NCBI GenBank assembly: GCA_030682475.1 | Contig: JAUXOA010000053.1 | Coordinates: 1-64,000 of the forward strand | From: Rhodoferax sp. | GTDB lineage: Bacteria; Pseudomonadota; Gammaproteobacteria; Burkholderiales; Burkholderiaceae_C | Direction: 5' to 3' | DNA: 64,000 nt | Shown here: piece after piece, positions 2,501-19,231 of the stretch | Numbering within the stretch: position 1 is the first letter of the stretch | How the letters are laid out: each line of letters opens with the position of its first letter | Program-made: the position numbers and the translations under genes | Notes under the pieces: generated by a model | What the model was told of the DNA's origin: nothing | Seen by the model: the letters and a program-made list of their open reading frames with translations, nothing else | Database searches by the model: none

Positions 2501-4251
2501 GCAGCGATTCCAGTGGGATGAACAGCGCGCACCGGTTCACGCGATTTTTCGATCACCCGGTGCGACAGGTAGGTGCCCACGGCCACCACCGCGACGGCGA
2601 TGACCCCCAGCGCGGCGCCCGGACCACGGCCGGCGATGCTTTGCATGTACAGATAGATGCCGTAGCTCATGGGGGCCTGGCTTTGTGCCGAGGTCAGTAA
2701 AATAGTGGCCGACAACTCCACCGCAGCCGTGATGAAACTGGTGACAAAACCGGCCAGAATACCGCCCATCATCAGCGGCACCATGATGCGTCGTGCCGTG
2801 CTGACCTTGCCGGCGCCCAGGCTGCCGGCGGCTTCTTCCAGCGAGATATGCACCTGCTGCAGCGCCGCCATGCACGAGCGCAGCGCATAGGGCAGCCGGC
2901 GCACGGCGTAGGCGATCATGATCAGGACCCAGGTCGCCACCACCGGCGTGTCGGTGAACGGAATGTTGACACCATGGAACATGCGCAGGTAGCCAATGGC
3001 CAGCACCAGCCCCGGAATGGCCAGCGCGATGGAGGCCAGGTAGTCCAGCCACTGGCGTGCGGGCAACCGGGTGCGGTAGATCAGGTAGGCAATAGCCGTG
3101 CCCAGCACAATGTCCAGCCCGGCAGCCATCAGGCAGTACTTGAGGGTGTTGTAGATCATGCCCTGGGAGTCGGCAAACACCGTGCCGTAGTGCGCCAGGG
3201 TGTAGCTGTCGGGCAGCACCGAGTAGCTCCACACCTTGCTGAACGACATCAGCAAAATGCCGACGTGCGGTGCCAGCGTGATCAGCAGCACCAACACCAC
3301 CCAGCCGTAGGCCAGCACCGATTCCCAGCCACGCAGCGTACGCCGCTGCAGTGAGTTGCCACCCTTTTGCAGCGTCGAATAGTCCCGCCCCTTCATCAAG
3401 CGTGCCGCCATCCACAGCGCCAGGATCGACAGGGCAATCATGATGACGCTGATGACGTAGCCCAGCGGGTCTTCGATACCGATTGATGTGATACGCAGGT
3501 AGGCTTGCGGTGCCAGCATATTGGTCACGCCCATCACCAGCGGCGTGCCCAGATCATCAAACACTTTCACAAACACCAGTGCAGCGCCGGCCAGATAGCC
3601 AGGCAGGGAGAGCGGGAAAATGATGCGCCAAAACAGGCTCCAGCCTTTGGCACCCAGGTTCATGGCCGACTCTTCCATGGCACCGTCGATGTTGCGCATG
3701 GCCGCCACCAGATTGAGCAGGATGAACGGGAAGTAGTGAATGCTCTCGACAAAGGTGACACCTACCAGACCGTCCATGATGGGGATGCCGAATCCAAAAT
3801 ATTCGTTCAACAACAAGTTCATCGACCCGTTGCGCCCAAAAATCAGTTGCAGCGCCACCGCGCCCACAAAGGGCGGCATGATGAGTGGCAGCACGCCCAG
3901 GGTCTGTATCAGCAGCGCCCCGCGAAACTCGAAGCGCACCGTCAGGTAGGCCAGCGGAATGGCAATGAGAGACGCAAAAAACACCGAGGCCAGAGCCACC
4001 AGCAAGCTGTTGACAAACGCTTCCCGCAAGAGCGTCTGCTGAAAAAAGTTGCCGAAGTGCCCCAGGGTGAAGGCACCGGTATCGGTGACAAAGGCGGTGT
4101 AAATCACCAGACCAATCGGCACCAGCAGAAACACCCCCAGAAACGCCAGCACGATACCGGCAAGAGTCCAGTGCCCCCAGGCGATACCCGAACCCGCAGA
4201 ACGCGCCATCGGAGTCCGGGGCACGCCCGGTTCCGCCAAGACAGCAGACAT
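2497..4251 (-). CDS. ABC transporter permease, fused two-domain (FbpB-like)
   Basis: This 584-residue inner-membrane protein has about twelve predicted segments and two binding-protein-dependent transport domains in one chain. The two cytoplasmic EAA-type loops are EESAMNLGAKGW near residue 193 and LEEAAGSLGAGK near residue 470. Single-chain permeases of this build are typical of Fe3+, aminoethylphosphonate and related importers. A GGGAG ribosome-binding site precedes the ATG. Its stop overlaps the ATPase start and it lies 41 bp downstream of the binding-protein gene, so the three form one operon. Confidence 0.88.
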   Translation of the reverse strand: MSAVLAEPGVPRTPMARSAGSGIAWGHWTLAGIVLAFLGVFLLVPIGLVIYTAFVTDTGAFTLGHFGNFFQQTLLREAFVNSLLVALASVFFASLIAIPLAYLTVRFEFRGALLIQTLGVLPLIMPPFVGAVALQLIFGRNGSMNLLLNEYFGFGIPIMDGLVGVTFVESIHYFPFILLNLVAAMRNIDGAMEESAMNLGAKGWSLFWRIIFPLSLPGYLAGAALVFVKVFDDLGTPLVMGVTNMLAPQAYLRITSIGIEDPLGYVISVIMIALSILALWMAARLMKGRDYSTLQKGGNSLQRRTLRGWESVLAYGWVVLVLLITLAPHVGILLMSFSKVWSYSVLPDSYTLAHYGTVFADSQGMIYNTLKYCLMAAGLDIVLGTAIAYLIYRTRLPARQWLDYLASIALAIPGLVLAIGYLRMFHGVNIPFTDTPVVATWVLIMIAYAVRRLPYALRSCMAALQQVHISLEEAAGSLGAGKVSTARRIMVPLMMGGILAGFVTSFITAAVELSATILLTSAQSQAPMSYGIYLYMQSIAGRGPGAALGVIAVAVVAVGTYLSHRVIEKSREPVRAVHPTGIAA

Positions 4252-17428: not shown

Positions 17429-18490
<1,062 letters not shown>

Positions 18491-18525: not shown

Positions 18526-18554
18526 TTGAAACGAGGCGCCAAGTTTGCTAGATT
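18526..18554 (+). promoter_or_regulatory. sigma-70-type promoter for the small RNA
   Basis: TTGAAA (526-531 of the 18.5-kb block) and TAGATT (549-554) are separated by exactly 17 bp. Each matches the consensus at most positions. The predicted transcription start, around 18561, falls at the GGGCAG that opens the first hairpin of the RNA below, and there is no ribosome-binding site or gene immediately downstream. Confidence 0.65.
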
Positions 18555-18560
18555 ACGCGT

Positions 18561-18658
18561 GGGCAGTTCTCTGCCTCCCGCTTTTCCTCCCTGAGCGGGG
18601 CCTTGATGTGTAACAGCAAATAGGCTTACCGCCCCAGCCCTCGTGCTGGGGTTTTTTT
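18561..18658 (+). ncRNA. candidate free-standing small RNA, about 98 nt
   Basis: The interval between a good promoter and an intrinsic terminator encodes no plausible protein and is rich in stems. A 5' hairpin GGCAG-TTCT-CTGCC is followed by CCCGCT pairing with AGCGGG around a pyrimidine-rich loop. Then comes a less structured segment (GATGTGTAACAGCAAATAGG) and a terminator hairpin. I cannot place it in a named family. A short 6S-like RNA or a Burkholderiales-specific regulator are candidates. It lies between hemB and hemJ, transcribed towards hemJ. Confidence 0.65.
18632..18658 (+). terminator. intrinsic terminator of the small RNA
   Basis: CCCCAGC pairs perfectly with GCTGGGG around a CCTCGT loop and is followed by seven T residues. 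It ends the candidate small RNA and would insulate the downstream hemJ gene from its promoter. Confidence 0.85.
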
Positions 18659-18700
18659 GACCCTGAATCTGTACCCTCATTCCGGATTTGAGTGGCTGTC

Positions 18701-18734
18701 ATGCCTGCCCCGGACTTGATCCGGGGTCCGGCAT
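18701..18734. repeat. REP-like palindrome upstream of hemJ
   Basis: A near-perfect dyad: ATGCC ... CCCCGGA-CTTGA-TCCGGGG ... GGCAT, with a seven-base inner stem, five-base loop and outer ATGCC/GGCAT arms. Elements of this appearance recur between genes in many proteobacterial genomes. Only one copy is seen in this window. With the small RNA it accounts for most of the 339-bp hemB-hemJ gap. Confidence 0.6.
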
Positions 18735-18802
18735 CCATGGATTGGGGGCCAAGCCCGCAACGACATCAACTGAGGTTTTTCGTCCCGGGCTAAACTGCGT
18801 TC

Positions 18803-19231
18803 ATGCTCTGGATTAAATCACTTCACATTGTTTTCGTCGCCAGTTGGTTTGCCGGTCTGTTCTACCTGCCGCGCATCTTTGTCAATTTGGCCATGGTGCC
18901 TGCGCAGTCGGTGGCTGAGCGTGAGCGGCTGTTATTGATGGCGCGCAAGCTGCTGCGTTTTTCAACCCTCATTGCGGTTCCGGCGTTGGGGCTGGGCGTG
19001 TGGCTTTGGGCCGGCTATGGCATTGGCTGGGGACCCGGCTATGGCTGGATGCACGCCAAGCTTTTCGTGGTTGTTTTGGCGCTGGCTTACCACCTCAGTT
19101 GTGGCGTCTTGCTGCGAAAATTTGTGGCCAATTGCAATACCCACAGCCACGTGTGGTACCGCTGGTATAACGAGGCTCCGGTGCTGCTGCTGCTGCTGGC
19201 GGTACTGCTGGTGGTGCTCAAACCGTTCTGA
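18803..19231 (+). CDS. hemJ: HemJ-type protoporphyrinogen IX oxidase (UPF0093)
   Basis: This 142-residue membrane protein has four predicted helices and matches the HemJ family. It starts MLWIKSLHIVFVASWFAGLFYLP with the conserved His8, has MHAKLFVV with the conserved Lys86, and ends with a WYNEAPVLLLL segment. HemJ oxidises protoporphyrinogen IX to protoporphyrin IX in the inner membrane in bacteria lacking HemG and HemY. Its closeness to hemB supports a heme role. The VanZ gene follows 3 bp after its stop. Confidence 0.85.
   Translation: MLWIKSLHIVFVASWFAGLFYLPRIFVNLAMVPAQSVAERERLLLMARKLLRFSTLIAVPALGLGVWLWAGYGIGWGPGYGWMHAKLFVVVLALAYHLSCGVLLRKFVANCNTHSHVWYRWYNEAPVLLLLLAVLLVVLKPF

Follow-up and report, generated by a model that had tools for sequence, protein, structure and literature searches.

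The anti-hemB family of small RNAs, also named Burkholderia RNA 7 (RF02837), includes ncS04 of Burkholderia cenocepacia, a transcript of 105 nt that is supported by dRNA-seq and whose 3' end was obtained by RACE; Table 2 of that report gives no significant change in its expression in 7 conditions, and the text section on the target lists computed for the sRNA candidates names none for ncS04 (PMC5688073). The same RNA is listed with the remark 'Co-purification with Hfq', taken from an earlier study, in a further source (PMC4603805), and anti-hemB is also among the entries given for B. pseudomallei (PMC3521395). C/U-rich elements likewise occur in two other kinds of RNA. The Betaproteobacteria toxic small RNAs (RF02278; ncS03, ncS05, ncS27 and ncS62), which form double hairpins, combine an intrinsic terminator with an unpaired, C/U-rich segment whose sequence complements ribosome binding sites, and ncS27 is described as acting on carbon and amino-acid use (PMC10987360). 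S17 of Bordetella pertussis, situated between a glycosyltransferase gene and coq7, uses conserved C/U-rich sites to pair in the vicinity of start codons and is Hfq-dependent according to the abstract; through such a site it represses translation of a sigma-54 activator, and a compensatory mutation restores repression (PMC11722255, a preprint).

We analysed a stretch of 64,000 nucleotides from Rhodoferax sp., referred to below as the window, in which a small RNA gene equipped with a promoter and a terminator of its own had been predicted between hemB and hemJ. The Rfam search proposed with that prediction returned RF02837 as the sole match at the gathering threshold at this locus, scoring 51.7 bits against a cut-off of 49.5. 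The margin of 2.2 bits is small; the match is full length, covering model positions 1-81 of 81, and in a genome of the same genus (G121) the model reaches 59.9 bits. In addition to a score above the gathering cut-off, the window shows two further features of the family, a hairpin with the CCUCCCUGAG loop and a divergent hemB alongside, the latter as in the Burkholderia ambifaria record L184. The RNA in the window is a further copy of this already known family, and the small RNA gene is real and conserved, as evidenced by the Rfam match, conservation, covariation and the transcript already published for the homologue in Burkholderia. Like ncS04 it is predicted to form a transcript of its own and of similar length (about 98 nt), and it shares with the family the C/U-rich hairpin and the terminator; it differs in that hairpin III has a (U)GACAGC-type loop and that hairpin I lies mostly outside the Rfam model. 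Rfam P9, with 18.2 of 43 bits, and ylbH, with 15 of 50, were taken as chance matches. That no protein fits the interval, as had been stated, was borne out on the + strand, where ORFs of at least 40 aa overlapping 18561-18659 are absent; two mechanical ORFs of 98 and 61 aa overlap it on the - strand. The gene downstream belongs to UPF0093, which we take to be HemJ. Between the terminator and hemJ there is a strong palindrome, CCCCGGACTTGATCCGGGG, at 18703-18740; considered as a repeat family it was rejected, as it is single-copy in its own genome at up to 3 mismatches.

Features of the anti-hemB locus in the window (+ and -, strand)
Feature	Position	Strand	Basis
hemB (delta-aminolevulinate dehydratase), divergent neighbour	17429-18463	-	Pfam ALAD, 458 bits
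Sigma-70-type promoter: TTGAAA (18526-18531), 17-nt spacer, TAGATT (18549-18554), TG before -10	18526-18554	+	motif scan; kept in relatives
anti-hemB (RF02837) small RNA	about 18561-18659	+	Rfam match 18574-18659; fold z = -3.93
Hairpin I (18561-18566 / 18571-18576), most of it before the Rfam model begins	18561-18576	+	fold; alignment
Hairpin II; C/U-rich, Shine-Dalgarno-complementary loop 18584-18592 (UUCCUCCCU); conserved core 18581-18596	18577-18599	+	pairing, column conservation
Hairpin III, family's (U)GACAGC-type loop, here UAACAGC; AACAGCAAATAGG at 18612-18624	18600-18625	+	fold, alignment
Intrinsic terminator, stem 18631-18638 / 18645-18652, seven Ts 18652-18658	18631-18658	+	scan, alignment
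hemJ (UPF0093), downstream neighbour	18803-19231	+	Pfam PF03653, 134 bits

The 5' end of the RNA is presumably located about 7 nt after the -10 element, at 18561 or 18562, and the resulting 99-nt RNA was computed to fold into four short hairpins with an energy of -43.0 kcal/mol. A single motif is little proof of a gene here, because the motif scans of 3.5 kb on both strands come close to chance expectation, with 2 promoter-like sites against 1.0 expected and 8 terminator-like sites against 4.9; the argument rests on conservation. Of 84 syntenic upstream regions, the window included, 57 reach a promoter score of 9 of 13 or more, compared with about 2 in mononucleotide shuffles, and the -10 element mostly keeps a single spacing within each of two clades. 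In one clade the 5' hairpin reads as a different, longer one, and the -10 is located about 10 nt further upstream.

The C/U-rich core of hairpin II (CUUUUCCUCCCUGAGC, 16 nt) is exact in 89 of 107 same-family loci, a set that was drawn mostly from better-scoring RF02837 places and is therefore no random sample, and whose collection by matching to the family model favours the core. The set originally comprised 109 loci (30 + 79); L061, with several copies, was set aside, and L085, on a short contig, was missed by the position filter. Across the 84 syntenic sequences the core columns hold 1.49-2.0 bits, as opposed to at most 0.17 upstream of the promoter. For the stems we used an alignment of 72 rows, shortened by hand, that contains the window, the second copy from its own genome and 70 of the 107 loci. 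In this alignment 89.9% of cells pair, and the stem covariation of 0.278 compares with 0.156 in shuffles, 0 of 500 of which reach the observed value, and with at most 0.117 when slid. The pairs with double changes count against covariation, with 17 observed versus 18 at a slide of -1. Hairpin II is paired in 99.8% of cells, and the third of its pairs is a C-G in 45 of the 72 rows and a U-A in the other 27, so that stems noted in the original prediction do recur in relatives with compensatory changes. All 6 pairs of hairpin I are changed on both sides, and just 68.4% of its cells pair. The less paired segment that had been noticed in the single sequence corresponds to the family's hairpin III loop, albeit in the variant form that the window carries. 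Among the same-family loci its GACAGC motif occurs in 74 of the 92 that are linked and in 11 of the 15 that are unlinked, but it occurs in 0 of 19 order-level cores, unlinked meaning that a hemB or hemJ match is absent within about 1.5-2 kb. The (U)GACAGC-type loop (18607-18618 in the window) is possibly a second pairing site.

For the distribution of the family we relied on counts over the cut-off, because control genomes also yield matches below it at E <= 0.001 (3 of 14). Of 150 same-family genomes, 117 have RF02837 over the cut-off (126 have it at E <= 0.001), as do 14 of 274 genomes of the class (124 at E <= 0.001), the 14 taking in the window's own genome and one same-family genome. Among the same-order genomes sampled it is over the cut-off in 133 of 200 (154 at E <= 0.001), and yet no tested target for the anti-hemB family turned up in our full-text searches of the open-access literature. 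A scan of named genomes for the hairpin pattern gave at least 120 stretches, with 80 loci among the matches listed, and the titles of these listed loci point to Betaproteobacteria or stop at Proteobacteria; the genera in the titles are those that we assign to the Betaproteobacteria class. Note that the named-genome set overlaps with the other loci, as L222/L005, L225/L013 and L244/L396 are probably the same contigs. A divergent hemB together with a co-oriented hemJ accompanies the RNA at 83 of the 107 same-family loci, hemB only at 7, hemJ only at 2 and neither at 15.

Heme control is what the family name implies; our data point to trans action via one conserved loop. We consider the RNA to be most likely a trans-acting, Hfq-type anti-hemB sRNA whose hairpin II loop pairs with Shine-Dalgarno sites and blocks ribosome binding. 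Such an sRNA would be transcribed from its own sigma-70 promoter and end at the intrinsic terminator, and the exposed C/U-rich loop (UUCCUCCCU) would pair, with Hfq helping, to Shine-Dalgarno regions rich in purines on several mRNAs encoded in trans, whose ribosome binding would be blocked; on this view the position next to hemB would be an inherited address and not the function. The loop is complementary to the Shine-Dalgarno sequence GGGAGGA; pairing and repression by the window RNA are inferred. All 15 same-family loci whose fetched DNA lacks both hemB and hemJ keep CCTCCCTGAG, 12 of them with the exact 16-mer, and retention of the loop in copies away from both genes fits trans action. What this explanation leaves unaccounted for is the conserved linkage to hemB, which is divergent in 90 of the 107 same-family loci, with no more than 350 nt between the aligned hemB start and the inferred 5' end of the RNA in 87 of these. 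The lack of a significant expression change of ncS04 in the 7 conditions also counts against it.

It is the same linkage, together with the family name, that speaks for a cis regulator of hemB, in which heme synthesis would be controlled either by transcription from the sRNA promoter or through base pairing to a hemB 5' leader of extended length. In the named genomes a divergent hemB within 1.2 kb was found for 60 of 81 matches and was absent for 13, two of which (L171 and L195) have one about 1.5 kb off, while 8 had too little flank. Relative to hemB, however, the RNA begins 98 nt ahead of the start codon and would therefore be antisense only to a leader longer than 98 nt, and a simple scan did not find a promoter-like site for such a leader on the - strand. 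A hemB match was obtained in 14 of 20 order-level loci (a hemJ match to the protein of the window in 0 of 20) and in 0 of 20 class-level loci, yet the core is present within 2 mismatches in 8 of the latter 20, of which L128 and L131 are tandem pairs. Sequence inspection revealed no GGAGG-type Shine-Dalgarno site near the start codons of hemB and hemJ, and because of this, and because the unlinked copies keep the same loop, control of heme is left without support. We thus regard cis regulation of hemB as unlikely, and of the proposal that the RNA acts on heme or other targets it is the second part that is plausible. The further suggestion of a compact 6S-like RNA, which would bind RNA polymerase, had only size class and structure in its favour, and it did not survive the analysis. 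6S RNA is one long bulged hairpin, in contrast to the four short ones of the window RNA, RF00013 gives no match at the locus, and the 6S gene of this genome is found on another contig (G000:C91:16058-16236, 47.6 bits, cut-off 46.4), so that we assign this alternative a negligible probability. Scarcely more credible is membership in RF02278, with which the RNA has in common the C/U-rich element, the terminator layout and a weak match; RF02278 RNAs consist of two hairpins, and the score of 19.8 bits at the locus is far under the cut-off of 50, the best in the window's own genome being 25.0 bits. The RNA may nevertheless act like RF02278 without being a member. Beyond the trans-acting sRNA proposed here, one may speculate, with considerable reserve, that the CUUUUCCUCCCUGAGC hairpin represents a single anti-Shine-Dalgarno module, ancient and movable, found in the anti-hemB RNAs of Betaproteobacteria, in copies off hemB and in single or tandem copies elsewhere in the same GTDB class, and that it acts as a general brake on the translation of genes for transport and metabolism and not as a heme regulator.

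For candidate targets of a trans-acting RNA, the pattern GGGAGGA-N2-10-ATG was counted in the window's own genome, giving 26 sites, two of them counted twice, versus 7 for the reversed-pattern control, and these counts show merely that such sites exist. A LysR-type regulator was rejected as a target, with GGGAGG present in 1 of 27 loci, that of the own genome alone; some relatives form other strong duplexes there, down to -18.4 kcal/mol. A livM-like branched-chain permease was likewise discarded, GGGAGG being found in 7 of the 22 loci read (the 6 closest and one other) in a confounded pattern, and by reading the motif appears to overlap the last codons of the preceding gene. The search for perfect complements to 15 nt of the loop yielded 114 places in 101 of 150 genomes. 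As judged by eye, 112 of these are in RF02837 loci, and the other two represent the same hairpin, although the stretch examined there lacks the usual terminator. No perfect long target was thus found, because all 114 places are copies of the hairpin itself.

Additional copies of the RNA were observed at several places. The second copy in the window's own genome (G000:C45:11006-11075; L124, about 3012-3093, - strand) scores 48.6 bits, just under the cut-off, and adjoins a PIN-domain gene; its hairpin II has the stem CCGCGC/GCGCGG, with a changed base pair, and the loop variant CUUCACCUCCCUGAGC. The same-family genome G087 (L061, G087:C10) contains six anti-hemB-like matches, among them a pair separated by 184 bases and a third match about 13.5 kb from it, and the class-level loci L128, L131, L139 and L140 each contain two to four within about 1 kb; the repeated copies at these five loci look like tandem multiplication. 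At L395 and L396 (L244 is probably the latter) the same C/U-loop hairpin occurs, but the stretch examined has neither the usual hairpin III nor the poly-U terminator; the C/U-loop hairpin is followed in both cases by a similar TTCTTGGCCG-GAGAAGCC hairpin, a form that is possibly a variant RNA or a leader.
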